A DNA stretch of 42,577 nt from a virus. Position numbers and translations under genes: made by a program. Each line of letters opens with the position of its first letter. Position 1 is the first letter of the stretch. Positions 9,563 to 25,295 of this stretch are shown one piece after another. The notes under the pieces are model-generated. The model was not told where the DNA came from and made no database searches. It saw only the letters and a program-made list of their open reading frames with translations. The stretch is taken from positions 1 through 42,577 of IMG/VR virus record IMGVR_UViG_3300005289_000613; one strand, written 5' to 3'.

Positions 9563-9586
9563 ATTTGGCTGGGGGCCTGACCAAAT
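9563..9586 (-). promoter_or_regulatory. Putative late activator (Ogr-type) site, P-Q promoter
   Basis: Reads ATTTGG-TCAGGCCCCCAG-CCAAAT on the minus strand, a 6-bp dyad with a 12-base core, extended one base each side (CATTTGG...CCAAATG). It is the same motif as at 16469, 19226 and 25272, but inverted so that it points at the leftward P-Q operon. Because it is a dyad it could also serve the divergent O-N-M operon. The N12 spacing equals that of the known P2 Ogr site (TGT-N12-ACA). Role inferred from position and recurrence. Confidence 0.65.
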
Positions 9587-9694
9587 GCGTCCGCTTGAGA
9601 TGATCGACGCAAGTGCCCTTTCTGGCTTCGCACAGCGCACCGCCCAACCCTTTCCAGCCACGCTGCCCAGCAACGCAAGAGACCGGAACCGACC

Positions 9695-10507
9695 ATGGCC
9701 AAGACGAAATTCTTCCGCATCGCCGTAGAAGGCGCCACCGTCGATGGACGCGTCATCGAACGCGAATGGCTGGAGCAGATGGCCGCCAGCTATGATCCGG
9801 CTACCTACACTGCCCGCATCAACTGCGAGCACATTGCCGGCTACAGCCCCGACAAGCCCTTCAATGCCTACGGATCGGTGCTCTCGCTGAAAACCGAGGA
9901 AGTCGAACTTACCATCAACGGCGAGAAGAAGAAGCTGCTCGGCCTCTATGCCGAGATCGACGCCAACGACAATCTGATCGCCATCAACAAGGCGGACCAG
10001 AAGCTTTTCACCAGCTGCGAGATCCATCCCGACTTCGCAGGTGAAGGCAAAGCCTATCTCGTTGGCCTGGCCGTCACCGACATGCCGGCATCACTCGGCA
10101 CCGAACCGCTCAAGTTCGCCGCGCTGTCGCGACCCAACGTGTTCTCGGCAGCGCATGAAACGCAGATCGAAGTTCTGTCGCAGCCTCTCGACAGCGATGC
10201 GATCGGGCAAAGCATCGGCCGCTCGATCCTCGATTTCTTCAAGAAGAAGGATGAGCCGGTAACGCCGTCCACCCCGCCGGCACCTGCGAACGACAACACG
10301 TTCGATCCGCAGGCATTCGCCGCGATGTTTGCCTCAAGCGTAGCCGATCAGATCGCCGCAGCGACCAAGCCGGCGAACGATGCCGTGGCCGCCCTCACCG
10401 CCCAGCTGGAGATGCTGCAGGGCAAGCTGGAAGCAACCCCGGAACCGCAGACCTTCAAGCGCACGCTGGCCACTGGCGGCAGCGGAGCGGTCGTCACCGA
10501 CTGCTGA
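9695..10507 (+). CDS. O: Capsid scaffolding protein and protease (P2 gpO-like)
   Basis: 270 aa. In P2, gpO is a self-cleaving serine protease fused to a scaffold. The candidate catalytic triad matches the family spacing: Asp17 (TVDGR), His46 (NCEHIAGY) and Ser107 (FTSCEIHPDF). A linker follows (DEPVTPSTPPAPAND), then a helical C-terminal scaffold (VADQIAAATK...LTAQLEMLQGKLE) expected to contact the capsid protein. It is the first gene of the rightward head operon, divergent from P. A modest GGA-type ribosome binding site precedes the ATG. Confidence 0.93.
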   Translation: MAKTKFFRIAVEGATVDGRVIEREWLEQMAASYDPATYTARINCEHIAGYSPDKPFNAYGSVLSLKTEEVELTINGEKKKLLGLYAEIDANDNLIAINKADQKLFTSCEIHPDFAGEGKAYLVGLAVTDMPASLGTEPLKFAALSRPNVFSAAHETQIEVLSQPLDSDAIGQSIGRSILDFFKKKDEPVTPSTPPAPANDNTFDPQAFAAMFASSVADQIAAATKPANDAVAALTAQLEMLQGKLEATPEPQTFKRTLATGGSGAVVTDC

Positions 10508-10570
10508 GTGTCGTCCCCACTATCCCGAAACTGACTGCCCCCGCCCTACGCCCCTCAGGAGCCCACGCCC

Positions 10571-11647
10571 ATGCGTAATGAAACCCGCCTCCTCTTCAAC
10601 GCCTACGTCAGCCAGATCGCGCTGCTGAACGGCGTTGCCAGTGCCGCCGTCAAATTCAGCGTCGCGCCCAACGTCGAGCAGAAGCTGGAAGAGAAGATCC
10701 AGGAGTCGAGCGACTTCCTGCAGCTGGTCAATGTCGTGGGCGTGCCCGCGCAGCAGGGCCAGAAGGTGGGCGTCACCGTCACCCGCCCGCTGGCGAGCCG
10801 CACCAACACCAACGCCGGCAATCGCCGCACGCCCGGCGATCCGACCGACACCACGGACGATGGCGGTTACTACTGCCGCCAGACCAACTACGATCACGCG
10901 ATCAAGTACGCGAAGCTGGACGCCTGGCGCCACAAGCCCGAATTCCAGACGCTGCTGCGCGACGTCATCCTGAAGCAGCAGGGCCGCGACCGGATCATGA
11001 TCGGCTTCAACGGCACGTCCGTTGCCGCGACTACAGATCGCGGCGCCAACCCGCTCCTGCAGGACGTCAACGAGGGCTGGCTGCACAAGATCCGCGCGCA
11101 CGCGCCTGACCGCGTGCTGGACGGCGGCGAACTGGCTGCAGACAAGATCTACGTCGCCGCTGGCGTCGAAGTCGTGGACGGCGATGCCACCAATCTCGAC
11201 ACCGCCGAGGCGGATTACGCCAACCTCGATGCGCTGGCCTTCGATGCCCTCGATCTGCTCGATCCCTGGCACCGCAGCGACACCGATCTTGTCGTCATCG
11301 TCGGTTGGAAGCTGGTCAAGGACAAGTACCTCAATCTGCTGCAGGCCGCTGGCGACACCGCGACCGAACGCGAGGCCGCGCACCGCATCCTCACGTTGCC
11401 CAAGCAGCTGGCCGGCAAGCGCGCTGTCATCGTGCCTTTCTTCCCGGAAGATGCGCTGCTGGTGACCAGCCTCGATAACCTGTCGATCTACTGGCAGGAG
11501 GAAACGCGCCGCCGCCTCATCAAGGATGAGCCCGCGCTCGATCAGATCGAGAACTACGAGTCCGTGAACGAGGACTATGTGGTCGAGGATTATGGCCGCG
11601 CCGCGCTGATCGAGAATGTCGTCATGGGCAAGAAGCCGGCGGCGTAA
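10571..11647 (+). CDS. N: Major capsid protein (P2 gpN-like)
   Basis: 358 aa, the usual size for P2 gpN. Start MRNETRLLFNAYVSQIALLNG, with AGGAG nine bases upstream. The ESSDFLQLVNVVGV segment near residue 45 and the VMGKKPAA C-terminus are family features. gpN forms the T=7 shell and is processed by gpO. It lies in the conserved O-N-M-L order. Confidence 0.95.
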   Translation: MRNETRLLFNAYVSQIALLNGVASAAVKFSVAPNVEQKLEEKIQESSDFLQLVNVVGVPAQQGQKVGVTVTRPLASRTNTNAGNRRTPGDPTDTTDDGGYYCRQTNYDHAIKYAKLDAWRHKPEFQTLLRDVILKQQGRDRIMIGFNGTSVAATTDRGANPLLQDVNEGWLHKIRAHAPDRVLDGGELAADKIYVAAGVEVVDGDATNLDTAEADYANLDALAFDALDLLDPWHRSDTDLVVIVGWKLVKDKYLNLLQAAGDTATEREAAHRILTLPKQLAGKRAVIVPFFPEDALLVTSLDNLSIYWQEETRRRLIKDEPALDQIENYESVNEDYVVEDYGRAALIENVVMGKKPAA

Positions 11648-11697
11648 GCCCCGCTCGCGCCTTCCCGCAAACCGGCCCCTCCGCAGGATACTCCGCC

Positions 11698-12513
11698 ATG
11701 AGCCTCGCTCGTCGTAAGCGTGATCGCATTCTCGCTGCCCAGACAGTCACCGCAGCGGCTGCACCTGTGAAGGGGGCGGCCGTCGCCCCCGCTGCTGTAA
11801 TCTCCCCAAAAATCGGGCCCTCACCAGCGGGGGCGGCCAACGCTTCCCCGGCAGACCGCGCCGCCGCCCAGATCGGCCTTCGCCTGACGCATGACCTGCG
11901 CCGGCTGAAGGAGATCAAGTCGATCGACCTCAAGATCGCCGCCAAGCGCGAGATGATCCCGCACTACCGCGACTGGATCGCCGGACTGATCGCCGCCGAT
12001 GCCGGTGTCGGCACCGGAACCGCTGCCGAAGTGCTGCCCACTTGCATGGTCTGGATGATCGATGTCGGTGAGTACGAAGGCGCCGTCGATCTTGCCGAAT
12101 TCGTCCTGCGCCACGGCGTTCCGATGCCTGCCCGCTACCAGCGCGATGCCGTCACCGTCGTCGTCGAGGAGATCGCCGAAGCCGCGCTCAAGCTGCAGGC
12201 GGCCGGCGAAACCTTCCCGCTCTCCGTTCTCGATAGCGTGGAGATCCTCACCATCGGTCAGGACATGCACGACCAGGTGCGCGCCAAGCTGCTCAAGGCG
12301 ATCGGCGTCGAGCAGCTGCGCGAAGCCGAGGATGCCGAGGCCGCAGCCAGCCTCCCGCGCCTGACCGCTGCCCTCGACGCCATGCGCGAGGCCCAGCGCC
12401 TCCATGACCGCATCGGCGTTAAGGACCGGATCAAACGGGCCGAAAAGCTGCTTAGGGCCGTCGCGCCCGAACCAGAAACGAACACCGAACCTGGCGGCGC
12501 TTCCGCCGCATGA
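11698..12513 (+). CDS. M: Terminase small subunit / endonuclease (P2 gpM-like)
   Basis: 271 aa. Residues 1-60 are a low-complexity Ala/Pro-rich extension. The body has the gpM patterns RDWIAGLIAADAGVGTGTAAEVLPTCMVWMIDVGEYEGAVDLAEFVLRHG (here described by its key parts WIAGL, TCMVWMIDVGEY and LAEFVLRHG). gpM recognises and nicks cos while gpP supplies the motor. An AGGA ribosome binding site precedes the ATG. It is followed by a strong GC hairpin. Confidence 0.92.
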   Translation: MSLARRKRDRILAAQTVTAAAAPVKGAAVAPAAVISPKIGPSPAGAANASPADRAAAQIGLRLTHDLRRLKEIKSIDLKIAAKREMIPHYRDWIAGLIAADAGVGTGTAAEVLPTCMVWMIDVGEYEGAVDLAEFVLRHGVPMPARYQRDAVTVVVEEIAEAALKLQAAGETFPLSVLDSVEILTIGQDMHDQVRAKLLKAIGVEQLREAEDAEAAASLPRLTAALDAMREAQRLHDRIGVKDRIKRAEKLLRAVAPEPETNTEPGGASAA

Positions 12514-12519
12514 CAAGCT

Positions 12520-12540
12520 CGCCCCCGGCGCTCGGGGGCG
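12520..12540 (+). terminator. GC-rich hairpin between M and L
   Basis: CGCCCCCG at 12520-12527, loop GCGCT, CGGGGGCG at 12533-12540: a perfect 8-bp stem seven bases after the M stop. No T-tract, so it is more likely an mRNA-stabilising or partial attenuation element that sets head gene ratios than a full terminator. Confidence 0.45.
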
Positions 12541-12634
12541 GATCGCGCGAGGCGGGAGGTTTTCGAACCGAAGGGCCGTCCTCTGACCCGGTCCCCACCC
12601 CCGTTAGCTCCGCAAACGTGGCTGACGGCGAACC

Positions 12635-13132
12635 ATGAGAGTGCCGCAAGTGACCTTCGTTGCCCGCCCCCCGCAATCGCAGATCGAGCAGGAGCCGCCA
12701 GGCGAAGCCGCCATCGTCAACGACGGCTTCTTTCCGGACATCGATCCCGCAGAGATCCGCGAAGCCGCGCGCATCCCGAGCAGCATCACGCCGGCCCGCC
12801 TGCGCGCCGCGATCCTTGGCGCGATCATGACCGTGGAGATCGACCTGCGCGCCTGGGCGGCCGACCGCATCGCCGAGGGCCATGCCGCGCTCGCCGATTT
12901 GGCGGCGCCGCAGCTGGACGGGCAAAGTGTCCAGACCATCCGCTACAACCGCGCGGTCGCGCTGCTTGCCAAGGCCGAACTGATCGAGCGGCACCGCGAT
13001 TTCGATACCACCGCTGCCGGCGCGGCGCAGGCCGACGAACTCGAGCCCTCGATCGGCGAATTGCGCCGCGATGCGATGCATGCCGTGCGCGACATGCTCG
13101 GCGCCACGCGCACCGTCGTGGATCTGATCTGA
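12635..13132 (+). CDS. L: Head completion/stabilisation protein (P2 gpL-like)
   Basis: 165 aa. gpL plugs onto the filled head at the portal. Family features are the NDGFFPDIDPAEIREAARIP segment near residue 29 and the RRDAMHAVRDMLGATRTVVDLI C-terminus. The start is not strongly fixed; GTG at 12650 is an alternative. Its stop overlaps the X start (TGATG). Confidence 0.9.
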   Translation: MRVPQVTFVARPPQSQIEQEPPGEAAIVNDGFFPDIDPAEIREAARIPSSITPARLRAAILGAIMTVEIDLRAWAADRIAEGHAALADLAAPQLDGQSVQTIRYNRAVALLAKAELIERHRDFDTTAAGAAQADELEPSIGELRRDAMHAVRDMLGATRTVVDLI

Positions 13133-13356
13133 TGGCGGCCGGGCAGCGCCTCACCGCGCGTTCGGGCGACAAGCTCGACTTGCTGCTGTTCCGCGAGGCC
13201 GGCCTCGGCCCGTCCGAACTGACCCGCGTCCTCGATGCCAATCCGGGCCTTGCCGATCTTGGCCCGATCCTTCCGCTGGGCACGGTCGTGATCGTGCCTG
13301 CCACCGCAGAGGCCAGCACGCCGCGTGTGCGCACCCTCATCCAGCTCTGGGACTGA
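13132..13356 (+). CDS. X: Tail protein X (LysM-like)
   Basis: 74 aa. Small P2 gpX-type tail protein with a LysM-like fold: the R-SGDKLDLLLFREAG start, the VLDANPGLADLGPILPLG turn, and VIVPATAE typical of the family, ending in RTLIQLWD. Translationally coupled to L. Confidence 0.9.
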   Translation: MAAGQRLTARSGDKLDLLLFREAGLGPSELTRVLDANPGLADLGPILPLGTVVIVPATAEASTPRVRTLIQLWD

Positions 13357-13360
13357 CGCC

Positions 13361-13693
13361 ATGGATCTTCGCACCTTCCTGCCCTCGCTTGCCGACGTCA
13401 TCGGTTCGCTTTCGCCGTCTCTGATCGGCTCGGCCGTCGCCCAGGCATGGAAGCCCGGCCTGTCGTGGCGGCAGCGCTTCGTGCAGTGGATCGTCGGCTC
13501 CACCGTCAGCTTCTACGTCACCCGCGTCATCATCGAAGTAACCGGATGGAGCGACTTCGTCGCGCAGTCGATCGCCTTCGGGATCGCCTTGCTGGCCTTC
13601 GACGCCACGCCCCGCATCGCCAGGGCGGCGACCGACGCGCTCGCCAGCCTTCCCGGCCGCCTGGCCGACCGCTTTTTGCCAGGAAAGGACTGA
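13361..13693 (+). CDS. Holin-like membrane protein
   Basis: 110 aa. Two hydrophobic segments are visible at about residues 43-60 and 66-82, with a basic C-terminus (RLADRFLPGKD). It directly precedes the lysozyme gene, the place of the P2 holin Y, so a holin role (timed opening of the inner membrane) is inferred from topology and context rather than from family identity. ATG 13361 follows the X stop by four bases. Confidence 0.75.
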   Translation: MDLRTFLPSLADVIGSLSPSLIGSAVAQAWKPGLSWRQRFVQWIVGSTVSFYVTRVIIEVTGWSDFVAQSIAFGIALLAFDATPRIARAATDALASLPGRLADRFLPGKD

Positions 13694-13698
13694 ACCTC

Positions 13699-14133
13699 AT
13701 GACTGCCCGCAAGATCGGCACTGCCGGACTCGCCCTCGTAAAGTGCTTCGAAGGTCGCAAACTGCGCGCCTACCGCTGCCCGGCTGGCGTCTGGACGGTC
13801 GGCTATGGATCGACCGGCCCGCACGTAAAGCCTGGCATGGTCATCACCGAACAGCGCGCCGAAGCGCTTTTACATGAGGATCTGTCCCGGTTCGAAGCCG
13901 CGGTCGATCGGGCCGCGCCCGGCGCCACGCAAAACCAGTTCGATGCCATGGTCTCGCTGGCCTTCAACATCGGGATTGACGCGTTCAACCGCTCCACGGT
14001 GCTGCGCAAGCATAAGGCAAAAGACTTCGAGGGCGCCAGCGCGGCCTTCGCCATGTGGAACAAGGCAGGGGGCAAAGTGGTCGCCGGTCTGGTACGTCGA
14101 CGCGCTGCCGAAGCCGATCTTTACGCCGCATGA
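13699..14133 (+). CDS. K: Endolysin, GH24 lysozyme
   Basis: 144 aa. Cleaves peptidoglycan. The catalytic E-x8-D/C-x5-T pattern is present as Glu18 (CFEGR), Cys27 (YRCPAG) and Thr33 (VWTVGYG). The Asp of T4 lysozyme is replaced by Cys, which is known in a branch of the family. The C-terminal RRRAAEADLY motif is typical. No signal-anchor is visible, so export would depend on the holin. The stop overlaps the Rz-like start. Confidence 0.93.
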   Translation: MTARKIGTAGLALVKCFEGRKLRAYRCPAGVWTVGYGSTGPHVKPGMVITEQRAEALLHEDLSRFEAAVDRAAPGATQNQFDAMVSLAFNIGIDAFNRSTVLRKHKAKDFEGASAAFAMWNKAGGKVVAGLVRRRAAEADLYAA

Positions 14134-14525
14134 TCGGCGCCTTGCACCTTGCCATGGCAGGCGCGTTGGCGGCGTGCGTCGCCGGCATCGGCGGCTTCTT
14201 CTATGGCACCCGCGTCGGCGCCGCGCAGGAGCAGTCCGCGCGGAAGCGCGCCGACGATGCCGCCGAAGCGGTACGGATGGAGCTTCAGGCGAAGATCGAC
14301 GCCTCGTCCGAGCGCGCGCAGGCCGTCGAATATGCCCGCCAGTCCAGCGTCAGGGAAATCTACCATGAAAGCCAGAAGATCATTGAGCGGCCTGTGTATC
14401 GCAATGTCTGCACTGACGCTGATGGTGTCCGCCTGCTCGACCGTGCCGCCGCCGCCGCCAACGGCGCGAGTTTCGCCGAACCTTCTGGCCCCGCCGCCGC
14501 AGCTTCCCAGCGTCCGCAGGAATGA
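14130..14525 (+). CDS. Rz-like inner-membrane spanin
   Basis: 131 aa. Short N-terminus and one membrane segment (about residues 4-26, ending GGFFYGTRVG), then a long Ala/Glu/Arg-rich helix (residues 30-85) facing the periplasm, the layout of Rz-type spanins that join inner and outer membranes at lysis. The start overlaps the lysozyme stop. An Rz1-like lipoprotein gene is nested in a different frame from 14365, which strongly supports the assignment. Confidence 0.8.
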   Translation: MIGALHLAMAGALAACVAGIGGFFYGTRVGAAQEQSARKRADDAAEAVRMELQAKIDASSERAQAVEYARQSSVREIYHESQKIIERPVYRNVCTDADGVRLLDRAAAAANGASFAEPSGPAAAASQRPQE

Positions 14526-14667
14526 CGCGGGCGAGATGACGGGCCGGGACGTGATGTTCAGCCTTTCGGCGCTCTACGATGTGGCTGGCCAGATCCGCGC
14601 CGCCTTCATCGAACTTCAGGCCGAGGTCCGCACCATGATGGAGGCATCCGATGCGCAAGGCCGATAG
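14365..14667 (+). CDS. Rz1-like outer-membrane spanin lipoprotein, nested in Rz
   Basis: 100 aa, in the +1 frame relative to the Rz-like gene and overlapping its last 161 bases. The signal sequence (MKARRSLSGLCIAMSALTLM) ends in a lipobox VSAC with Cys24. A proline-rich stretch follows (STVPPPPPTARV), the mark of Rz1. The mature protein is longer than typical Rz1 and its C-terminal helix (RDVMFSLSALYDVAGQ...) continues into the start of gene R, overlapping it by 17 bases. Confidence 0.8.
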   Translation: MKARRSLSGLCIAMSALTLMVSACSTVPPPPPTARVSPNLLAPPPQLPSVRRNDAGEMTGRDVMFSLSALYDVAGQIRAAFIELQAEVRTMMEASDAQGR

Positions 14668-15169
14668 CCTCCGGCGCTGGCTCACCGCCTTCCTGCCCGA
14701 CTTGAGGACGCATCCCGACCGGTTGCAGGTCTACCTCGAAGGCGGCGAGGTGAGGGCGCGCCGCTCTGCCACCCTGTCGTTCTCCTACGCCTACACGGTG
14801 AAAGCGCTCATCACCGATTTTGCGGGCGATGCCGATACGATCATGGTCTCGGTCCTGGCATGGATCGAGAAGGAGCAGCCGCAGCTGCTGCAGGCGAGCG
14901 ACGACAAGCCCTTCGGTTTCGAGGCCGAACTGCTCGACAGCGAGACCTACGACATCGAACTGTCGATCGACCTGAGCGAACCGGTGCTGGTCATCCCGCG
15001 CGGCGATGGCAGCGGTTACGATGTCAGCCACCCGCAGGAGCAAGCCTTCCCGCCGCTGTTCGAAGGGGTAACGGCGTCGTTCCTGCAGGGCTTCGGCGAT
15101 GTCGAAACGCTCGCGCAGACCGCAGATCCCGATGCCGTGCTGACGCCGGCCGTGCCGCCGGACGCGTGA
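14651..15169 (+). CDS. R: Tail completion protein R
   Basis: 172 aa. P2 gpR-type protein that helps complete the tail end joining the head. The start MRKADSLRRWLTAFLPDL, followed by a run ending in LQVYLEGGEVRAR, and the SYAYTVKALITDFAGD segment are characteristic. GGAGG lies seven bases before the ATG. The order lysis-R-S matches P2. Confidence 0.9.
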   Translation: MRKADSLRRWLTAFLPDLRTHPDRLQVYLEGGEVRARRSATLSFSYAYTVKALITDFAGDADTIMVSVLAWIEKEQPQLLQASDDKPFGFEAELLDSETYDIELSIDLSEPVLVIPRGDGSGYDVSHPQEQAFPPLFEGVTASFLQGFGDVETLAQTADPDAVLTPAVPPDA

Positions 15170-15176
15170 TCGCCGT

Positions 15177-15848
15177 ATGACTGACGATCTTGCCGAAATT
15201 GAACGCCTCGCGGGCGTGCTCCTGCGCAGCCTGTCATCGGGCCAGCGGCGCGGCATTCTGCGCAAGATGGCCCGCGAACTGGCGATCGGCCAGCGCGAGC
15301 GCATTACCGCGCAGCGCCAGCCTGATGGCAGCGCATTTGAGGCGCGCAAGGCAAAGCAGCCGGTCGTGTCCGGTCGGGGCACGGCTTGTTTCCTCTACCC
15401 ATCGGGAGGCAGCGGCCCGCCGCGCCGGGTCATCATGAAAAGCTTCACGTGGGGAACCGGGCGGATGATGACCGGCTTCGACATCGATGCCGGCGCCATC
15501 CGCTCCTTCGAATTCGAAAAGATCGTCAAATGGCTTCCGGTCCCGGAGGAACATCGCAACAAGGGTGGCGGCAAGCTGCGCCGCCGGGGCGGCCTGCGCC
15601 GGCGCAACATGTTCCGCCGTCTCGCCAGCGCGAAATTCCTGAAGGTGAAAACCGACGATCAGGGCTTCTGGGTCGGCTTCTCCGGCAAAGTCTCGCAAAT
15701 CGCCAGCGTCCACCAACAAGGCCTGCGCGACAAGCCGTCAATCAGGGCCAAGGCCGTGCCCTATCCCCGCCGCGAGCTTCTCGGCGCGACCGAGCGAGAC
15801 CGCGCTCACATGCTCGATGCGCTCTACGCCCATCTGGCGGCCAGCTAG
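15177..15848 (+). CDS. S: Tail completion protein S (virion morphogenesis)
   Basis: 223 aa. P2 gpS/phage virion morphogenesis family: N-terminal LAEIERLAGVLLRSLSSGQRR, the ARELAIGQRERITAQRQPDG motif near residue 37, and the C-terminal YPRRELLGATERDRAHM motif. Its 3' end overlaps the convergent brnA gene by four bases. No V gene follows, unlike P2. Confidence 0.9.
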   Translation: MTDDLAEIERLAGVLLRSLSSGQRRGILRKMARELAIGQRERITAQRQPDGSAFEARKAKQPVVSGRGTACFLYPSGGSGPPRRVIMKSFTWGTGRMMTGFDIDAGAIRSFEFEKIVKWLPVPEEHRNKGGGKLRRRGGLRRRNMFRRLASAKFLKVKTDDQGFWVGFSGKVSQIASVHQQGLRDKPSIRAKAVPYPRRELLGATERDRAHMLDALYAHLAAS

Positions 15849-16120
15849 GCCCGCTTCGCCACCCAGTCCTTCAGCGCATCGTTGATCCGCGATTGCCAGC
15901 CCGGCCCTCCGGCGCGGAAGTGTTCGACCACGTCCGGCGACAGCCGGATAGTCGTGCTGATCTTCTTCGGGGCCTTTTGCGGGCCTCGGATCTTCATCTT
16001 GCTGGCCAGATCCGGAAACGCCTGCGCGAACGGAATGGCTTTCGCGAAATCATCCTTGGTCCATTCGGGATTGTCACTCACCGCATCCATGTCCGCCTGG
16101 GTATACTTCGCCTTGGTCAT
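15845..16120 (-). CDS. brnA: BrnA family antitoxin
   Basis: 91 aa. Ribbon-helix-helix antitoxin that neutralises the RNase toxin BrnT and represses the operon. The C-terminal STTIRLSPDVVEHFRAGGPGWQSRIN segment (key parts TTIRLSPDVV and GWQSRIN) is the RHH core. The ATG is preceded by AAGGAG and overlaps the brnT stop by four bases. The gene points against the late operon and overlaps the end of S. Confidence 0.9.
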   Translation of the reverse strand: MTKAKYTQADMDAVSDNPEWTKDDFAKAIPFAQAFPDLASKMKIRGPQKAPKKISTTIRLSPDVVEHFRAGGPGWQSRINDALKDWVAKRA

Positions 16121-16362: not shown

Positions 16363-16370
16363 GGCCGTAT

Positions 16371-16411
16371 GTAGTAACATTCAGCCTTCTTTGCAATCAG
16401 AATGTTACTAC
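16371..16411 (-). promoter_or_regulatory. BrnTA autoregulatory operator: perfect 12-bp inverted repeat
   Basis: GTAGTAACATTC at 16371-16382 and GAATGTTACTAC at 16400-16411 are perfect reverse complements separated by 17 bases. The dyad covers the AT-rich region immediately upstream of brnT, where a BrnA dimer-of-dimers would bind to repress. Role inferred from position and known BrnA autoregulation. Confidence 0.7.
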
Positions 16412-16468
16412 AATTTATATCTAGCCCGGCTGCTCGAAAATCTGGATATCGAAGGCCTGCTCCAGGGC

Positions 16469-16492
16469 ATTTGTTCAGCCGCCCATCCAAAT
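16469..16492 (+). promoter_or_regulatory. Putative late activator site before the 16557 gene
   Basis: ATTTGT-TCAGCCGCCCAT-CCAAAT. The outer arms extend to a perfect 9-bp inverted repeat, GGGCATTTG (16465-16473) with CAAATGCCC (16488-16496). Same core as the copies at 19226 and 25272. It lies 64 bases before the start of the next gene, suggesting that the two-gene 16557-18127 unit has its own late promoter. Confidence 0.65.
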
Positions 16493-16556: not shown

Positions 16557-17630
16557 ATGGCCCAGAATTTCCCCGACTTTCGTGGCACCCGTGAATGGCA
16601 GGATATCACCGCCCTGCCGGGCTACGGCGCACTTGTCGGCAAAAGGGTGGTGATCCAAGCAAAGAGCGGCACTTACAACGCCGTCTGGTTTGGCAGTGTT
16701 GCCCCGCCTGAAGCTTCGAGCGGAATTCCCGCGCCTGCACATCGGGATGTCAGTGGATCGGGTGATCATATCTGGGTCAGAGGCGATACTCGGTTTGCCA
16801 TTCTCCTCGAGGAATTCGCAGATGGCATTGCCCATCCTGCCTTGCCGTTCGACACGACCGGACTGGCCAGTCCTCATCGCGGCACGGTGCTCTACGACCA
16901 CAATTTCATGGATCGCATCGCCCGCGAGCATACGTTCACGCATCTTTTTACGCCCGGCGAGGCCAATAAGAGCGGCTCTACCCAATGGATTGATCGGGGA
17001 GGGGTCGGACGGGTCGCGACGATGATCGAGAAAAACGCAGCCGGCAAGGAGGCTATGGGTATCGCTCGCCTGAGCCAGTATTACGGCGACGGGGTCTACC
17101 TGTACGAAGGCATCCATTCGATCGAGGTCCAGTGCCTCAATCGCACATATCCGCGTTGGTATGATATCGGGATTGATCACGCCAACTTCGATGGCAGCAA
17201 ACGCTGCTTCCTCCGTCTGCGTTATCTCAATTATGATGAACTCGCCGGCGGCTATGCACGGCGCTGGCAGCTGTTGATGGGGAACGACCCGAACATGGAC
17301 GCCCGCAATCTCGGTACTGGCGAGAGCATCTGGCTGGAAAACGAGAATAAGGCTCTGCCGATCAAGATCGACCTGATGTTTGACACGCGAGAGGAGCGGT
17401 ATCTCGGTGTCCGCATCGGCAACCGGCCTGATCTGGCGCTCGGCACCCTTGCGCCAAATCCGAATGATGACCTGCGCAATCTCGGCCCCGTATACAGCCA
17501 TGCGCTGACCTCATTCCACGAGGGCTTCAACCTGTGTCAGTCCGTCGTTAATCGCACCACAGGCTCTAACTCGTGCGGGCAGATCAACTGCCACGCTGCA
17601 CGCCTGACCTATCTCGGAAAGATCTACTGA
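16557..17630 (+). CDS. Unrecognised protein, probable virion component
   Basis: 357 aa. ATG 16557 is chosen over 16491 because AGGAG lies six bases before it and the upstream ATG is at the late-operator palindrome. Aromatic- and Gly-rich, beta-type sequence, no signal peptide or membrane segment. Segments such as RGTVLYDHNFMDRIAREHTF, YEGIHSIEVQC and LRLRYLNYDELAGGYARRWQLLMG suggest a lectin-like or jelly-roll surface-binding fold, but I cannot name the family. It replaces V-W at this point of the P2 map and shares a late-type control site with the structural operons. A receptor-binding or decoration role is a guess. Coupled to the next gene by TGATG. Confidence 0.75.
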   Translation: MAQNFPDFRGTREWQDITALPGYGALVGKRVVIQAKSGTYNAVWFGSVAPPEASSGIPAPAHRDVSGSGDHIWVRGDTRFAILLEEFADGIAHPALPFDTTGLASPHRGTVLYDHNFMDRIAREHTFTHLFTPGEANKSGSTQWIDRGGVGRVATMIEKNAAGKEAMGIARLSQYYGDGVYLYEGIHSIEVQCLNRTYPRWYDIGIDHANFDGSKRCFLRLRYLNYDELAGGYARRWQLLMGNDPNMDARNLGTGESIWLENENKALPIKIDLMFDTREERYLGVRIGNRPDLALGTLAPNPNDDLRNLGPVYSHALTSFHEGFNLCQSVVNRTTGSNSCGQINCHAARLTYLGKIY

Positions 17631-18662: not shown

Positions 18663-18683
18663 GTGCCCTCCTGATGGCACCAT

Positions 18684-18764
18684 GAGCTCCCGCTTTAGTC
18701 GATTCTCAAAATTAAATTATTGTAATGCAATTTCTCTTTTTATCTCTTGATAAAATAGCAGTCG
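18684..18764 (-). promoter_or_regulatory. AT-rich upstream region of the MarR-like gene
   Basis: About 80 bases, strikingly AT-rich for this genome. On the minus strand TTGCAT, a 17-base gap and GAGAAT could form a weak sigma-70-type promoter for the MarR-like gene. The composition also suggests recent acquisition. Confidence 0.35.
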
Positions 18765-19034
18765 TTAATCAAACGGATCTTTACTAAGATCGTCAATTAG
18801 TTGCAATAGGTCTGCCATGTCGCCCTCTTCAAATGAGGGGTATGGTTCACTTTTCCAATTCGATAATATGCCCGTATTTGCAGTAAACCGGTGGGAGGCT
18901 TGTGCGCTCAGGTTTTTAGCGGTCGCAGCATCGGGACCGGCGAAAAAAGACAGCACAAGTTTAGGCGAACAGCCATTCTCGTAGGCAACTATCACGCACA
19001 AATATCGATCTTCCAGCCGACCCATCCTCACCAA
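18765..19034 (-). CDS. Hypothetical protein, about 89 aa
   Basis: The start is uncertain: TTG 19034, GTG 19031 and ATG 19025 are all in frame, with a GGTGAGG stretch right before the ATG. Acidic C-terminus (FEEGDMADLLQLIDDLSKDPFD) and a central KLVLSFFAGPDAATAKNL. No domain recognised, no signal peptide. Lower GC than the flanking structural genes. It lies upstream of the MarR-like gene in the same direction and may form a cargo pair with it. Confidence 0.5.
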   Translation of the reverse strand: MVRMGRLEDRYLCVIVAYENGCSPKLVLSFFAGPDAATAKNLSAQASHRFTANTGILSNWKSEPYPSFEEGDMADLLQLIDDLSKDPFD

Positions 19035-19225
19035 CTTAGCGGCTGTCAGTTAATGCAAGCTTGCTTAGCATTGATACGTTATGGATGATCTTTTTTGGTC
19101 CGTAGAGTGAGTATTTCCACTGGGGGATGTCCCGTAGTGCGGCATGCGGTAGGGCTAGATTGATGGACTTGCTCATCCAGCCTTTCCGCTAAGGCCTGAA
19201 CCTACCGTTGACTGTCCTGAGGATC

Positions 19226-19249
19226 ATTTGGACAGCCGCCCGTCCAAAT
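19226..19249 (+). promoter_or_regulatory. Putative late activator site before J
   Basis: ATTTGG-ACAGCCGCCCGT-CCAAAT, a perfect 6-bp dyad, 7 bp counting CATTTGG/CCAAATG. The J start at 19294 lies only 44 bases downstream, so the leader must be very short if the site is at the P2-like distance from the transcript start. Same motif as at 9563, 16469 and 25272. Confidence 0.7.
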
Positions 19250-19293
19250 GCGCCCCATAGCCACGACATGCCCAACCCAGCGACATGGGCCGC

Positions 19294-20187
19294 ATGGCCG
19301 ATGCTACCTTCACTGCTGTCGATCTGTCACGCCTGCCTGCGCCCGATGCGATCGAGGATCTCGATTTCGAGACGATCCTCGCTGACGCGGTCGCGCGCAT
19401 GCAGGCCCAGATGCCGGATTTCGTCACGCGGGACAGCGATCCGGCGACCAAGCTGCTGCAGGTCTTCGCCTACTTCGCGCAGCTGCTGCGCCAGCGCGTC
19501 AACGACGCCGTGCGCGCCGTCATGCCCGCCTATGCCGTCGGCGCGGACCTCGACAACATCGCGGCCCTGTTCGGCATAACCCGTTTCAACATCACACCCG
19601 CTGACGACGTCCTGGGCATTCCCGCCGTCATGGAAAGCGACGCGGATTTCCGCCGCCGCATGGTGCTGGCACCGGAAGGCTATTCCGTCGCCGGGCCGGA
19701 GGGCGCCTATATCTTCCATGCCCTGTCGGCCGATGCCGACGTGCTCGATGCCAGCGCCATCAGTCCTGCTGCCGGGGAAGTCCTGGTCTCGGTCCTGTCG
19801 CGCACCGGCACCGGTGCGGCATCGCCCACGCTGATCGACGCGGTCGGCGCTTATGTCTCGGCTGAGACGCGCCGGCCGCTGACCGACTTCGTGACCGTCC
19901 AGTCGGCCGAGATCGTCGATTATGCGGTCGATGCCACGCTTACCACGTTCAGCGGCCCTGACGGCGGCGTCGTGCTTGCCGCCGCGCAGGCCAATCTCGA
20001 TGCCTATGTCGCGGCGAGCCACCGGCTCGGCCGCGATGTGACACGCTCGGCCATCTTCGCCGCGCTCCACGTCGAAGGCGTGCAGAAAGTCGTGCTGGCT
20101 TCGCCCGCCGCTGACATCGTCATCTCGCGCACGCAGGCGCCGAACTGCACCGCCGTCGCCATCGCCTACGGCGGTACGGACGAATGA
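19294..20187 (+). CDS. J: Baseplate assembly protein J
   Basis: 297 aa. Baseplate wedge protein of the P2 gpJ/Mu gp47 family. The start MADATFTAVDLSRLPAPDAIEDLDFETIL is characteristic (key parts FTAVDLSRLPAPD and DFETIL), which is why 19294 is preferred over the in-frame ATG at 19285. A PATKLLQVFAYFAQLLRQRVND segment (about 52-74) and the VGADLDNIAALFG motif follow. The stop overlaps the I start (ATGA). First gene of the J-I-H block. Confidence 0.93.
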   Translation: MADATFTAVDLSRLPAPDAIEDLDFETILADAVARMQAQMPDFVTRDSDPATKLLQVFAYFAQLLRQRVNDAVRAVMPAYAVGADLDNIAALFGITRFNITPADDVLGIPAVMESDADFRRRMVLAPEGYSVAGPEGAYIFHALSADADVLDASAISPAAGEVLVSVLSRTGTGAASPTLIDAVGAYVSAETRRPLTDFVTVQSAEIVDYAVDATLTTFSGPDGGVVLAAAQANLDAYVAASHRLGRDVTRSAIFAALHVEGVQKVVLASPAADIVISRTQAPNCTAVAIAYGGTDE

Positions 20188-20741
20188 CCTATCCGTCGAT
20201 CCTGCCGCCGGGCTCTACCGCGCTGGAAAGGGCGCTCGAGCAGACCGCCGCCGGCCTCGTTGATGCTATTGCGGTCCCCATCCGATCGGTTTGGTCACCG
20301 AACCACTGTTCGATCGAATTGCTGCCGTGGCTGGCGTGGGGGCTCAGTCTCGACAACTGGTCGACTGATTGGTCTGATGCCGTCAAGCGGGAGCGGGTTC
20401 GGCAGGCAATATCCATTGCCCGCCGCAAGGGCACGGCGGAATCCGTTCGCTCGGTCGTTGCCAGCTTCGGCGGATCGGTCGCTATTCGTGAGTGGTGGCA
20501 AACCGAGCCGAAAGGCGAGCCGCACACCTTCAACCTCCTGCTCAATCTTGATCAGGCCAGCGCGCCCGCTTCAGCCATCTTCGTCGATCAGGTCATTGCC
20601 GAGGTCATGCGCGCCAAACCGGTGCGCAGCACCTTCACCTTCACGCAGGGCATCAACGCCTCGGCCCGCATGGGCCTGGCCGCTGCCGCTCGCCCTATCA
20701 TTTACGCTCGCCTGTCCTGCACGGCGCCCGCTGCGATCTGA
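20184..20741 (+). CDS. I: Tail protein I (baseplate-fibre connector)
   Basis: 185 aa. P2 gpI family: LPPGSTALERALEQTAAGL near the N-terminus and the LLPWLAWGLSLDNW motif near residue 46 are diagnostic. gpI joins the baseplate to the tail fibre. Coupled to J by a four-base overlap; H follows 12 bases later. Confidence 0.92.
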   Translation: MTYPSILPPGSTALERALEQTAAGLVDAIAVPIRSVWSPNHCSIELLPWLAWGLSLDNWSTDWSDAVKRERVRQAISIARRKGTAESVRSVVASFGGSVAIREWWQTEPKGEPHTFNLLLNLDQASAPASAIFVDQVIAEVMRAKPVRSTFTFTQGINASARMGLAAAARPIIYARLSCTAPAAI

Positions 20742-20753
20742 CCGGAGAAAGTC

Positions 20754-22967
20754 ATGGGTCTCATCCTCACCGTCACCAATGCGGGTCGCGCTGCACTTGT
20801 GAACGCTGCGAATACCGGAACGGCGCCGGTTACGATTGCGCAGGTTGGCCTTACCGACATTGCCGTCACGCCAGCTGCGACTACTACCTCTCTACCCGGT
20901 GAATTCAAACGCCTCGCCACGATGTCCGGCGATGTCGTCGCTGACGACACCATTCATGTGATCGTCCGCGATGAAGGTGCAGATGTCTTTACCGTGCGCA
21001 GTCTGGCGCTCTACCTTGACGATGGCACGCTTTTCGCGATCTACGGGCAGCCCGATGTGCTGCTCGAAAAGTCGGCACAGGCTCTCATGCTCCTCGCGAT
21101 CGACGTGCAATTCGCCGATGTCGATGCCACCCTGCTAGCGTTCGGCGATGCAAACTTTCTCAACCCGCCAGCAACCACCGAGCGGCAAGGCGTCGTCGAA
21201 CTGGCGACGGTGGCCGAAGCCCAGGCCGGCATTGACGCCCTGCGCGCACTGACGCCTGCCGGGGCTAAAGCCGCGATCATGGCTTGGCTTTTGTCGTTGG
21301 ACGGCGCCGGCTCTGGCCTTGATGCGGACCTTCTGGATGGCCAGCACGGCAGCTACTACGCCAACATTCCTGCGCGCCTGGGCTATACGCCAATCAACAA
21401 GGGTGGCGATACCGTCACCGCCGCCATTTCCTACCAGGTTCCTGAAACGTCGAGCATTGCCGCGCGACCCAACGGCAACACACCCTTGGTGGCGATGGGT
21501 AACGGTATTGGCGGCCCGGCTGTTATGACGTTCCACCGTCCGGGATCATACGCGACGTTTTTTGGCATCGACACCGACAACCAACTGAAATTCGGCGGAT
21601 GGTCGGCCGGCGCTGTGGCGAACGTCATTTGGCACACCGGCAACGATGGCGCCGGCAGTGGCCTGGACGCCGACTTGCTCGATGGGCAACAGGGAGGTTT
21701 CTACACCAATATTCCGGCACGGCTTGGCTATCAGCCCGTCCAGCAGGGCACCGGCGTTGGGCAGCTTAGCAATGTCGTCAAGATAGGTTGGGGCAGCAAC
21801 AGCCGCGTTCGGGTTACGGTGGACTCCACTGACCAAGGTAATATCGTGTTCGATGCAAACTTGGCCGGTGGAGGCTTGGGCGTAAATGGCGCCTACGTCG
21901 CCCGCAACGGCAATCATTTGTTTGGTCCCGATAACGATGGCGCCGGATCGGGTTTGGATGCGGACTTGCTGGATGGCTTGCAGTCCACCCAGTTCATGCG
22001 CAACTTCACCAACAACTGGGTGCGTAGTGAAGAAGGTCGCGAGCGGTTTTTCTTCACCCCCAACGCGGACACTTACGCCCGCGTGTCGGGCGCTTTTCGC
22101 TGGCAGAACGGCAGTGATGCCAATGTCGGCTCGATCGACGAAAGCGGAAATCTGTGGCTTTCTGGCCAAGTCGATGCGCTTCGCGTCGTCACGCGCGCAA
22201 ATGGCGATGGCATGGCGATCAAGGTTGGCGATGATGCGTGGATCGGTGATGTAAACTGGGTCAACGGCATTGGCATTCGCGGCCAGCAGGACAGCCGGGC
22301 CGGCTTTGTCACCTTTGGCACGTCAGGCCTGGGACTGGGATGTGACGCGGCTGATGCTACGCTTCGTTATGCCGGAAATCCCGTCTGGCACGCCGGAAAC
22401 GACGGCGCAGGCAGCGGCCTGGACGCGGACACCGTGGATGGCTGGCAGCGTGACGATATCCGACACTGGAACAACTTGCTCGGAAAGCCCTTCAACTGGG
22501 CGGGGCAGGAAGGGCAGCCGCAATGGCTATGGGGCAGTAATGATGGCGGGCAGTACTACGTCTGGAACCCCTCCAATTTCAGCGTGAACTACGCGAATTC
22601 TGCCGGCTCCTCCAACTCGGCCAATTATGCAAATTCGGCCGGTAATGCCGACACGGTGGACGGCCTCCACGCTTCCGATTTGATGCCGACCGGGAATTTG
22701 TCTGCGGCAGGCTACACGCGCCTGCCCAACGGCCTGATCCTTCAGTGGGGGACCGTCAGTTGTTCGTCAAACTCCTACGGGTCCGTCACCTTCCCCATCA
22801 TTTTTCCCAACGCCTGCGTCAACATCCAGTCCTGCGTAGCGACTGAAGTTGGAAACGGAGACGCGCAGGCAAACTGCCCGCTGCCGTACAGCACGACGAG
22901 GAGCGGGGCGAATTTCTGGAATGCCGCCCCTGCGGCGACCGCCTGGTGGTGGGCCATTGGTTACTAA
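20754..22967 (+). CDS. H: Tail fibre protein H with repeated DGAGSGLDAD modules
   Basis: 737 aa. The first about 170 residues are the conserved P2-type fibre base (start MGLILTVTNAGRAAL, then LALYLDDGTLFAIYGQ). Four copies of a DGAGSGLDADLLDG-type module follow, beginning at bases 21300, 21645, 21936 and 22401, two of them continuing into YxNIPARLGY. A degenerate NADTVDGLH copy lies near 22650. The C-terminal 90 residues (LPNGLILQWGTVSC...) form a tip domain rich in Gly, Ser and Trp, shared with T4-type short fibres and likely the receptor-binding part. Confidence 0.9.
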   Translation: MGLILTVTNAGRAALVNAANTGTAPVTIAQVGLTDIAVTPAATTTSLPGEFKRLATMSGDVVADDTIHVIVRDEGADVFTVRSLALYLDDGTLFAIYGQPDVLLEKSAQALMLLAIDVQFADVDATLLAFGDANFLNPPATTERQGVVELATVAEAQAGIDALRALTPAGAKAAIMAWLLSLDGAGSGLDADLLDGQHGSYYANIPARLGYTPINKGGDTVTAAISYQVPETSSIAARPNGNTPLVAMGNGIGGPAVMTFHRPGSYATFFGIDTDNQLKFGGWSAGAVANVIWHTGNDGAGSGLDADLLDGQQGGFYTNIPARLGYQPVQQGTGVGQLSNVVKIGWGSNSRVRVTVDSTDQGNIVFDANLAGGGLGVNGAYVARNGNHLFGPDNDGAGSGLDADLLDGLQSTQFMRNFTNNWVRSEEGRERFFFTPNADTYARVSGAFRWQNGSDANVGSIDESGNLWLSGQVDALRVVTRANGDGMAIKVGDDAWIGDVNWVNGIGIRGQQDSRAGFVTFGTSGLGLGCDAADATLRYAGNPVWHAGNDGAGSGLDADTVDGWQRDDIRHWNNLLGKPFNWAGQEGQPQWLWGSNDGGQYYVWNPSNFSVNYANSAGSSNSANYANSAGNADTVDGLHASDLMPTGNLSAAGYTRLPNGLILQWGTVSCSSNSYGSVTFPIIFPNACVNIQSCVATEVGNGDAQANCPLPYSTTRSGANFWNAAPAATAWWWAIGY

Positions 22968-22978
22968 GGGCAATTGAA

Positions 22979-23368
22979 ATGACCATATTTTATAGTTCTT
23001 CGGCAGGTGGATTTCTGGACAGCGAAATCCACACAAGCATTCCCGATGATGCGGTTTCGCTGAGTGCGGAAAGTCACCTCGCTTTACTGGAAGCAGCGTT
23101 GGTCGGTTCGATAATCGTTCCCGGCGAAGGCGGTATGCCAATGGCTGTACCGGCGCCGCCTCCTGCAGAGGAGGAGATGTTCAGGCGGATGCGCGACCGG
23201 CGCAATCAACTGTTGCGCGCCTGCGACTGGACCCAGGTCGCGGACACAAAGCTGTCCCCCGAAACTCGCGATGCCTGGGCGACCTACCGCCAGAGCTTGC
23301 GCGATCTCCCCGAGGAGTTCGCAGACGATCCCGCTTCGGCTGTTTGGCCGGAACCACCCCAGAACTAA
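22979..23368 (+). CDS. Tail fibre assembly chaperone (G-like)
   Basis: 129 aa. Start MTIFYSSSAGGFLDSEIH is typical of fibre-assembly proteins encoded after fibres, and the C-terminal RNQLLRACDWTQVADTKL...WATYRQSLRDLPEEF pattern is the phage tail assembly chaperone motif. Expected to fold or attach the fibre H. ATG 22979 with AAGGG upstream is preferred over the longer frame from 22946. Confidence 0.88.
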   Translation: MTIFYSSSAGGFLDSEIHTSIPDDAVSLSAESHLALLEAALVGSIIVPGEGGMPMAVPAPPPAEEEMFRRMRDRRNQLLRACDWTQVADTKLSPETRDAWATYRQSLRDLPEEFADDPASAVWPEPPQN

Positions 23369-23380
23369 GGAACTGACCGC

Positions 23381-23632
23381 ATGAAAACGAGCATCGGCAA
23401 GTATGACGCTTCGACGCGAACCGTCCCCGTGACCTTCAAGCATGTCGGCGTGGAACATTCCCGCACCGTCAATGCATGCCTTACCGAAACAGGCCAATAT
23501 GATGCGAAGGCCACGGCGGCACGCGTGAAGGAAGTGGCGTCCGGCGTGGAACACAAGATTGGTCTTGGGGTCATCACTATGCCGATGCCCGAACGTGAAG
23601 TGCCCGTTGTGGCGGAAGCACCCGCAGAATAA
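23381..23632 (+). CDS. Small hypothetical protein, 83 aa
   Basis: AAGGA ribosome binding site nine bases before the ATG, in the same direction as the fibre chaperone and 12 bases after it. Start MKTSIGKYDASTRTVPVTF, then KHVGVEHSRTVNACLTETG and an Ala/Pro-rich acidic end. No domain recognised. Context suggests a small late protein linked to the fibre block. Confidence 0.7.
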   Translation: MKTSIGKYDASTRTVPVTFKHVGVEHSRTVNACLTETGQYDAKATAARVKEVASGVEHKIGLGVITMPMPEREVPVVAEAPAE

Positions 23633-23754
23633 CCGCGGCACTTCACGCCGCGCCTACCCTCTTGTACGGCAAGGGGGCCTCAGATGTTCCCGCATCTTGA
23701 AAGCCAGCGAGCCTGCACTCGCACCTCAGGGCAGCACGCCTGTCCCATCAGATA

Positions 23755-23783
23755 CCCTTGCCGCGTCTCAGGCGCGGTAAGGG
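23755..23783 (+). terminator. Hairpin upstream of the Dam gene
   Basis: CCCTTGCCGCG (23755-23765), seven-base loop, CGCGGTAAGGG (23773-23783): an 11-bp stem with one G-T wobble. It ends 21 bases before the dam start. Could terminate the fibre transcript or control dam translation; no T-tract follows. Confidence 0.4.
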
Positions 23784-23804
23784 CAATCTTGCAGGAAATC
23801 CTAC

Positions 23805-24623
23805 ATGTCTACCTCTTTTGTTCCCGTTCGCCCCGTCTCGCCTGTTGCCGGCTACATCGGCGGGAAGCGCAACCTTTCCAAGCGCATCTGCGCCATTATC
23901 GAGGCCACGCCGCACAGCAGCTATGCCGAACCTTTCGTCGGTATGGGCGGCATCTTCCTGCGTCGTAAAAGCCGCCCAAAGGCAGAGGCGATCAACGATA
24001 TCTCGGGAGACGTCGTCACCCTTTTCCGCTGCCTTGCTGAGCACTATCCCTACCTTATCGACATGCTGCGCTTCCGCGTCGCGAGCCGCGCCGAGTTCGA
24101 ACGGCTGCTCGCGCAGTCGCCCGACACGCTCACCGATCTGCAGCGCGCTGTGCGCTTCCTCTACGTTCAGCGCCTGGCATTCGGCGGCAAGGTTTCCGGA
24201 CGCACCTATGGGGTGGACGCCTCATCGCCCGCGCGGTTCGATGTCGGCAAGCTGGAGCCGATGCTCGCGGATTTGCATGACCGTCTCCAGTCGGTGACGA
24301 TCGAGCGCCTGCCATATGGCGATTTCATCCGCCGCTATGACAGGGAAGGCGCGCTGTTTTACCTCGATCCGCCTTATTGGGCTTGCGAGCGCGACTATGG
24401 TCCGGGCGTCTTTACCCGCGAAGACTTCGCCGCGCTCGTCCGCCATCTGGCCGGCATCAAGGGCAAGTTCCTGATGTCGCTCAACGATAACGAGGGCGTG
24501 CGCGAGACGTTCGCGGGCTTTGCCATCGCGTCGATCGATACGACCTACACATTAGGGCCGCAATCGAAGCAGGCGCGCGAAGTGCTGATCAGCAACTATC
24601 CCATCGCGGCTAATGACGATTAA
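23805..24623 (+). CDS. dam: DNA adenine N6-methyltransferase, D12 class
   Basis: 272 aa. Dam family: GGKRNL at 19-24 (motif X), EPFVGMGGIF at 42-51 (motif I, SAM binding), and DPPYW at 188-192 (motif IV, catalytic). Members typically methylate adenine in GATC or related sites. Phage-encoded Dam protects incoming DNA from restriction or regulates packaging. It is cargo between the fibre block and V, comparable to the P2 fun(Z) position. Site preference cannot be read from sequence. Confidence 0.9.
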   Translation: MSTSFVPVRPVSPVAGYIGGKRNLSKRICAIIEATPHSSYAEPFVGMGGIFLRRKSRPKAEAINDISGDVVTLFRCLAEHYPYLIDMLRFRVASRAEFERLLAQSPDTLTDLQRAVRFLYVQRLAFGGKVSGRTYGVDASSPARFDVGKLEPMLADLHDRLQSVTIERLPYGDFIRRYDREGALFYLDPPYWACERDYGPGVFTREDFAALVRHLAGIKGKFLMSLNDNEGVRETFAGFAIASIDTTYTLGPQSKQAREVLISNYPIAANDD

Positions 24624-24637
24624 TATGATGCTGAAAT

Positions 24638-24673
24638 GTTGCGGGGCGCCTCTTATTTGAAGCGCCCCGCAAC
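24638..24673. terminator. Perfect 12-bp hairpin between convergent dam and HTH genes
   Basis: GTTGCGGGGCGC (24638-24649), 12-base loop, GCGCCCCGCAAC (24662-24673). The stem is perfect and lies exactly between two convergent genes, so it probably serves as a bidirectional transcript end. No long T-tract on either side. Confidence 0.65.
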
Positions 24674-24675
24674 GA

Positions 24676-24867
24676 TCAAACCGGGAACGGCCCCTGCGCT
24701 GCTTGAACATCAGCATATTTCAAGCCGTTGATGATCTCTGAGATACGTCCTTGGTTCACACCAAAGAGTGCTGCTACCTGATGCTGGAAGAGCTTTTTCG
24801 TATAGATCAAGAACTTGATGTGAGCTGCCATCTCACGCGTAATTTTTGGCGATCTTGCTCGTTTCAT
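24676..24867 (-). CDS. Small HTH DNA-binding protein, 63 aa
   Basis: ATG 24867 has GAGGA eight bases upstream and is preferred over the longer frame from TTG 24888. Start MKRARSPKITREMAAHIKFL, then a clear helix-turn-helix: HQVAALFGVNQGRISEIING. This small HTH type is widespread in alphaproteobacteria and their phages. It faces the dam gene across a shared hairpin. It probably represses an adjacent promoter; the target is unknown. Confidence 0.7.
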   Translation of the reverse strand: MKRARSPKITREMAAHIKFLIYTKKLFQHQVAALFGVNQGRISEIINGLKYADVQAAQGPFPV

Positions 24868-24981
24868 TCGCTTGGTCCTCATGGCCAATGCGATGAAACC
24901 GGGTTGACTTCGACCTCCCTGGATGCAAGATTCAGGGCCTTGAAAATGACCTAGTCATCCGCGGTCTCATCGCGGTTATCC

Positions 24982-25016
24982 GAGCCGGAAGCGCGTCAAC
25001 GCTTCCGGCTCTTTTT
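24982..25016 (+). terminator. Strong rho-independent terminator
   Basis: GAGCCGGAAGCG (24982-24993), loop CGTCAA, CGCTTCCGGCTC (25000-25011), then TTTTT and CGTTT. Perfect 12-bp stem with a U-tract. It is the best terminator in the window and insulates the V operon from upstream transcription. Confidence 0.85.
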
Positions 25017-25271
25017 CGTTTATGACGCGAGTCGTTTACGAGCGCAATGCTGAATTTCCTCTACAAGGCGTTTCTGGCGCCCTTTTCCACGTTTATGGGC
25101 CCTGCCCTAGCTACGATCCGTTTAAACGCTGTAGGCGGTAATTCCGGGCAGAATTTGCGCTAATGAAGAGGCACCTATCGCTGAAGCAATCTAAGAGGTT
25201 GCTAAAAGGGTTAACGCCCCGCTTTGTTCATCTATTGATCCTGTCACGTTCTAGGCCGGTTCAAAACGTTC

Positions 25272-25295
25272 ATTTGGTCAGCCCCCCATCCAAAT
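25272..25295 (+). promoter_or_regulatory. Putative late activator site before V
   Basis: ATTTGG-TCAGCCCCCCAT-CCAAAT, perfect 6-bp dyad. It lies 43 bases before the V start. Same core as the copies at 9563 (inverted), 16469 and 19226. It is the only such site seen upstream of the whole V-to-D block, so that block is probably one long late transcript. Confidence 0.7.

Follow-up and report, generated by a model that had tools for sequence, protein, structure and literature searches.

The late genes of a P2-like prophage of Sphingomonadaceae type are the subject of this study. The prophage occupies an entire virus record, IMG/VR IMGVR_UViG_3300005289_000613, whose 42,577 bases we refer to as the window, and its gene content is of the P2 type, with terminase P, scaffold O, baseplate proteins J and V, tail protein D, an Ogr/Delta gene and an integrase. 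We find that a hyphenated dyad stands upstream of the late operons of this prophage, and that relatives carry dyads of their own at equivalent places. These dyads are very probably the operators of each prophage's own Ogr activator, which would drive nearly leaderless P, J and V mRNAs and would form phage-specific pairs with its sites.

From the sites, their conservation and geometry, their concordance within a phage and their covariation with the zinc finger, all read from sequence, we infer binding, activation, dimer formation and transcript starts as follows. The product of 39622-39930, probably dimeric, would occupy the palindrome, whose centre would lie about 55 bp ahead of the transcript start. 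From there it would bring in the host's RNA polymerase; the promoters have a weak -10 box and, with the exception of that of O, lack a clear -35 element. The site between P and O would activate both directions, and the other sites would drive the gene at 16557, the J-I-H operon and the V-to-D operon. Transcription of the P, J and V operons would begin at the start codon or a few nucleotides from it, and ribosome sites would be present in the leaders of O and the 16557 gene. Among the P2-like phages of sphingomonads, the DNA-reading surface of the activator and all of its operators would change together, which would give rise to the phage-specific pairs.

The relatives used for comparison came from terminase searches that retrieved 80 viral and 80 genomic loci, the nearest genomic loci being prophages of Novosphingobium, Sphingobium and Sphingomonas. 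Late regions and ogr genes were obtained for 66 relatives, in each of which P, J and V were then located. About 60 relatives with dyads were compared, promoter geometry was taken from 59 phages and operator statistics from 52 phages.

Late-operon dyads and the activator gene

The dyad ATTTGG-N12-CCAAAT is exact at 9563-9586 (centre 9574.5), between the divergent promoters of P-Q (minus strand) and O (plus strand), at 19226-19249 (plus strand, centre 19237.5), upstream of J-I-H, and at 25272-25295 (plus strand, centre 25283.5), upstream of V-to-D. The copy at 16469-16492 (plus strand), which precedes the 16557 gene, reads ATTTGT-N12-CCAAAT and has one mismatch. With at most one mismatch allowed, the window holds four matches versus 0.07 expected from dinucleotide shuffles, the maximum in 100 shuffles being one. 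A first-pass annotation, made by a model from the letters alone, had listed these four copies of ATTTGG-N12-CCAAAT; its count stands, apart from the mismatch at 16469, but it overlooked a weak fifth copy, ATTCCG-TCAGCCGCTCAG-CCAAAT, at 41206-41229 (plus strand), whose left arm is degenerate. The sequence CATCGT occupies the expected -10 place of this copy at 41262-41267, and a small gene (ATG 41301) that overlaps the integrase gene lies downstream.

The same annotation described a conserved oriented core, TCAGCC(G/C)CCCAT, a description that holds only in part. The core is exact at 16469 and 25272, and it differs at 2 of 12 positions at 9563 (minus strand) and 19226. Searched alone with up to three mismatches, it is not significant in the window (91 matches versus 93 expected). 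Combined with the right arm it yields six matches versus 0.05 expected, namely the four sites, the fifth copy (at 41212) and a match at 923, which we took as chance, as it lies within a coding region and lacks the left arm. Neither is the orientation fixed, since at the shared P/O site the core faces P in the window and O in the close relative L103 and in L007; core orientation was therefore dropped as a functional feature. The copies do lie upstream of late operons as had been proposed, but the 9563 site had been directed into P-Q only, and this site probably serves both P and O, as its equivalent does in P2.

The putative Ogr/Delta-like activator gene that had been placed at 39625 is confirmed at 39622-39930 (plus strand, starting with GTG 39622 or ATG 39625) by a PF04606 match (E 9.2e-13, 48.3 bits against a cut-off of 26.3). 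Its cysteines C14, C17, C40 and C46 form C-x2-C-x22-C-x5-C, in which the last gap is one residue over C-x2-C-x22-C-x4-C; the x4 gap is found in many relatives. A PF04606 gene is present in 39 of 44 related viral records, one in each, and in 35 of 36 host genomes. Several hosts (G047, G056, G048, G049, G052 and G055) have two or three, so that a single cell may harbour prophages or satellites that differ in Ogr type. No solved structure of an Ogr relative was found.

By gene content and site position, the system belongs with the Ogr late-activation system. A hyphenated dyad precedes every late operon (the P/O, 16557, J and V sites), and one is common to P and O. The likeness to P2 (Peduovirus, AF063097) includes a zinc-finger activator gene beyond D, a dyad with the N12 spacing that the first-pass annotation had pointed out, and one activator site that the P2 annotation assigns to pO and pP together. 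In P2 the dyad centres are annotated about 55-58 bp away from the transcript starts, and the value of about 55 bp estimated here from the -10-like boxes is consistent with this. The strict published sequence TGT-N12-ACA is not reproduced in the window, where the half-sites are TGG/CCA at three copies and TGT/CCA at 16469. However, P2 itself departs from it at O/P and F, two of its three annotated activator sites, which in one orientation are likewise TGT-N12-CCA; the published consensus is therefore no strict criterion. The proposal of a late regulon with changed specificity is borne out as regards an Ogr-type regulon with four real sites, but within the window the specificity differs only modestly, and it is among the relatives, each with an operator of its own, that the greater divergence appears. 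Further differences from P2 are the arms (TTTGG/CCAAA versus TGT/ACA), the separate J-I-H and V-to-D sites where P2 has V-W-J-I-H-G and FI-to-D, the third cysteine gap of Ogr (x5 versus x4), and P and J mRNAs that are predicted to be leaderless as well.

Other P2-like phages provide similar comparisons. Smp131 of Stenotrophomonas (PMC3931495) has the same operon division (PP', PO', PJ' and PV'), sites resembling TGT-N12-ACA, as well as an Ogr homologue, but its arms are different, and the accessible part of that report mentions neither leaderless geometry nor operator diversity. The Ralstonia phages phiRSA1 and phiRSY1 (PMC5694545) have four late promoters with one common motif and encode an Ogr homologue whose zinc-finger motif is conserved, but the promoter motif is TGTTGT-N13-ACAACA, with other arms and N13 spacing. 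Within the Sphingomonadales, the P2-like Zymomonas mobilis plasmid pZM41 (CP023686) carries one PF04606 gene and, ahead of P, J and V, a single dyad type (TTTCCCATCG...), which differs from the window as a further operator sequence. Our literature search, which covered few subscription papers, found neither diversified operators nor leaderless late mRNAs reported for P2-like phages. The features that appear to be new are the joint diversification of activator and operators and the predicted absence of leaders in three late operons.

The first-pass annotation had held that occurrence of the motif at many non-promoter sites would count against an operator. The matches lie instead at the late promoters of P2-like prophages. 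CATTTGG-N12-CCAAATG without mismatch has 21 matches in 12 Sphingomonadales host genomes, and every exact match checked lies at a late promoter of a P2-like prophage (those in G045 and G055 were checked in part); the matches assigned to P, J and V of the retrieved prophages agree with the coordinates of these promoters. One exact match in the genome of the L105 host but outside that prophage (G047:C72), considered as a satellite site, proved to be the J promoter of a second, truncated P2-like prophage. Likewise, another operator type, CTTGTAGA-N7-TCTACAAG, has 12 matches in 17 genomes, which are confined to the five genomes with that prophage operator type and to the same contig.

Promoter geometry and the predicted leaders of P, J and V

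An alignment of the 59 phages by dyad centre places the start of a -10-like box 43-46 nt 3' of the centre at most P, J and V promoters. In the window this box is CATGGT at 9525-9530 (minus strand) for P, with its first base 44.5 nt from the centre and 13 nt before ATG 9517; GACATG at 19282-19287 (plus strand, 44.5 nt) for J; and CATGGT at 25327-25332 (plus strand, 43.5 nt) for V. In relatives the box is CATGGT or TAGGTT at P, CATGGT at V and GACATGG at J. On the O side, a -35-like TTGAGA is found at 9595-9600 (plus strand), 20.5 nt from the centre, its six positions being conserved at 68-98% in the aligned phages, and a -10-like CTTTCT follows at 9618-9623 (plus strand) after a 17-nt spacer; relatives have TTGAGA at 21-26 and a T-rich box at 44-50 from the centre. 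The dyad centre is thus predicted from these boxes to lie about 55 bp upstream of the transcript start at all four promoters, as annotated for P2. Of the two explanations that had been offered for the small distances between dyads and start codons, a different activator position is not supported, as the dyads are at about -55 as in P2 when measured from the -10-like boxes. The other, very short leaders, finds support at P, J and V, whose start codons are predicted at 56-60 bp from the centre. For P and J the likely starts are the second ATGs, at 9517 and 19294.

These start codons belong to the terminase large subunit gene P, the first gene of P-Q (7664-9517, minus strand), the baseplate gene J (19294-20187, plus strand, 56.5 nt from the centre) and the baseplate spike/assembly gene V (25339-25893, plus strand, ATG 55.5 nt from the centre), all three predicted to be leaderless. 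The first gene of the other divergent operon, the capsid scaffold/protease gene O (9695-10507, plus strand), has its start codon 120.5 nt from the centre, which implies a leader of about 65 nt. The median distance of the start codon from the centre is 59 for P, 57.5 for J and 56 for V, compared with 103.5 for O. Shine-Dalgarno sequences are lacking at P, J and V in these phages, as expected of leaderless mRNAs: an energy below -4 kcal/mol is reached at 15% of P, 28% of J and 12% of V starts, versus 81% of O starts and 40% of shuffled sequences. In addition, the ATG within the P-promoter box occurs among relatives in all three phases relative to the start codon, which argues that the box is a promoter element and not coding sequence. 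Start codons located 56-60 bp from the dyad centre, just past the -10-like box and without Shine-Dalgarno sequences, lead us to predict P, J and V mRNAs with no leader or almost none. The accessory sites at 16469 and 41206 precede genes with short leaders and Shine-Dalgarno sites.

The leaderless part of this reading would be wrong if the dyads were ordinary Ogr sites with transcripts that start further upstream and carry normal leaders, the -10-like boxes being coincidental. The P2 annotation offers some ground for such an arrangement, for its P and FI leaders are about 25 nt long, but it also places the V transcript start at the start codon, so that leaderless P, J and V mRNAs would extend a feature already present in P2. 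Box and start codon also keep a near-constant distance from the dyad in the 59 phages despite variable flanks, and Shine-Dalgarno enrichment is present at O but absent at P, J and V. We therefore regard normal leaders as unlikely. What weighs against the leaderless prediction is that the internal late genes I and D are also often without a strong Shine-Dalgarno sequence (43% of each below -4), and its absence alone is thus no proof of leaderless mRNA. If the prediction is true, essential virion genes of these phages depend on leaderless translation, and leaderless mRNAs are already documented in the host group: in Zymomonas mobilis, of the same order, 119 leaderless transcripts are reported (PMC7566282, a study with transcription start site sequencing).

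Operator diversity among sphingomonad phages

In about 60 relatives, dyads are present upstream of P/O, J and V at places equivalent to those in the window. Upstream of P, most sphingomonad relatives have the dyad at the same place, with arms that vary by lineage. In an independent inverted-repeat search upstream of each gene, the arms proved to be common to the three dyads (P, J and V) of a phage, for example CATATGGAG in L008 and L012, CATCGGGCGAG in L016 and L017, CATTTCGCT in L021 and L108, CAATGGTAGAG in L033 and L138, CAATCGTAGAG in L036 and L047, CTCTTGTAGAA in L030 and L038, CTTGTGAAA in L055 and L058, and AAGGTGTGGCG in L066. A scan of the whole phage with its own motif returns almost solely the P, J and V places. 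That arm complementarity is kept while the sequence varies between phages is also what paired RNA would show, and the dyads could in principle be hairpins, acting as attenuators or in translation control within the 5' leaders of the late mRNAs and kept by compensatory change. But the copies of a given phage have all changed to one sequence, although an RNA stem would require no such uniformity, one copy sits between divergent operons, and the dyad would not be part of these mRNAs, given that 43-60 nt separate its centre from the -10-like boxes and start codons downstream. P2 also has an activator site annotated upstream of the start at the equivalent place. The hairpin explanation is thus highly improbable, and we rejected it on the shared sequence of the copies within a phage and their location upstream of the promoter boxes.

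The reading of the dyads as Ogr operators was examined further by comparing operators with activators. With dyad centres picked by each phage's own motif, the mean arm distance is 0.136 within phages versus 0.421 between them, and a site of the same phage is the closest of the 52 phages in 56% of 312 comparisons. Depending on the threshold, 19 to 26 operator classes are distinguished in the 52 phages, and 10 at the loosest. Operator distance is correlated with Ogr zinc-finger distance after removal of the P, J, V and D protein distances (partial Mantel r=0.319, 0 of 2000 permutations). Between L104 and L108 or L021, whose zinc fingers are more than 80% identical, a TTTGG operator in the former corresponds to TTTCG in the latter two, and Q takes the place of an arginine that is otherwise nearly invariant (R24 of the window protein). 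L122 resembles an intermediate, for its P site has CAATCG, its V site CAATGG and its J site a hybrid. Several points weigh against this picture of co-diversification. The choice of centres by own motif favours concordance in the arm-distance, Mantel and 52-phage comparisons, although the inverted-repeat search is independent of that bias. V protein distance retains a partial correlation of 0.28, and the zinc-finger covariation is partly confounded with phylogeny. Finally, a few sites are degenerate or missed (L024, L053, L120 and L128).

Palindromes that are repeated within a phage and vary between phages are also typical of repressors, and the dyads might instead be bound by another phage or host regulator, such as a lysogeny repressor that silences late genes in the prophage. 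This seems improbable to us, because the sites lie at the exact places of the P2 Ogr sites with their spacing, nearly every relative has an ogr gene, the operator distance tracks the Ogr zinc finger (Ogr being the one regulator compared in this way), and an operator switch is accompanied by a zinc-finger switch. Taking the dyads as Ogr operators, we lean, with more reserve than for the system in the window, towards an activator-operator radiation in sphingomonad P2-like phages, in which three to five operators and the Ogr finger would have changed together into about 20 or more specificities that would block cross-activation between co-resident phages or satellites both ways, with leaderless P, J and V mRNAs in addition. 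The combination of a small activator, of about 100 residues with one C4 zinc finger, and easily found operators amounts to a natural table of finger sequences matched to DNA sites, from which the rules of Ogr recognition could be read. The group would also offer ready-made, probably orthogonal, switches, and it allows one to ask whether phages alter their late operators to escape cross-activation by satellites or other prophages. Our statement on operator diversity applies to sphingomonad phages; in the non-sphingomonad P2-like phages Dobby, Milagro, KS14, Acica, ENT90, 186 and K139 the dyads are less symmetric and were not resolved by the same search.

Additional operator copies and neighbouring genes

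Additional operator copies are found in some relatives. L066 (joined-phage coordinate 16973) and L142 have a fourth full copy before the J operon, placed like the 16469 site of the window. In roughly ten phages a further, weaker copy of the phage's operator follows about 1-1.6 kb past ogr, either next to a GapR-like gene or ahead of the integrase and small genes (in joined phage sequences, L007 39310, L032 33544, L069 38563, L107 38346, L115 37365, L143 38812 and L145 40296; in the window, 41206-41229). Such a copy may render that segment partly Ogr-responsive. The gene for the GapR-like DNA-binding protein (PF10073, E 1.5e-34) lies at 40764-41000 in the window and beyond ogr in many relatives as well.

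The accessory gene that follows the 16469 site (16557-17630, plus strand) encodes 357 residues with a weak phrog_4770 match; its leader is predicted to be about 20 nt long, with AGGAG as the Shine-Dalgarno site. No relatives of this gene were found in the viral-contig search or among the relatives examined, and the idea that it is a portable cassette carrying its own operator was dropped when the viral-contig search returned no homologues. A BrnA-type antitoxin gene (PF14384; 15845-16396, minus strand) adjoins the 16469 operator on the opposite strand. Elsewhere in the window, a D12-class adenine methyltransferase gene (23805-24623, plus strand) is located between the J-I-H and V operons, a second DNA methyltransferase gene (32547-33680, minus strand) lies beyond D, and a 786-residue protein with SIR2-like and STAND NTPase domains, encoded at 3877-6237 (minus strand), is likely the product of an anti-phage defence gene.

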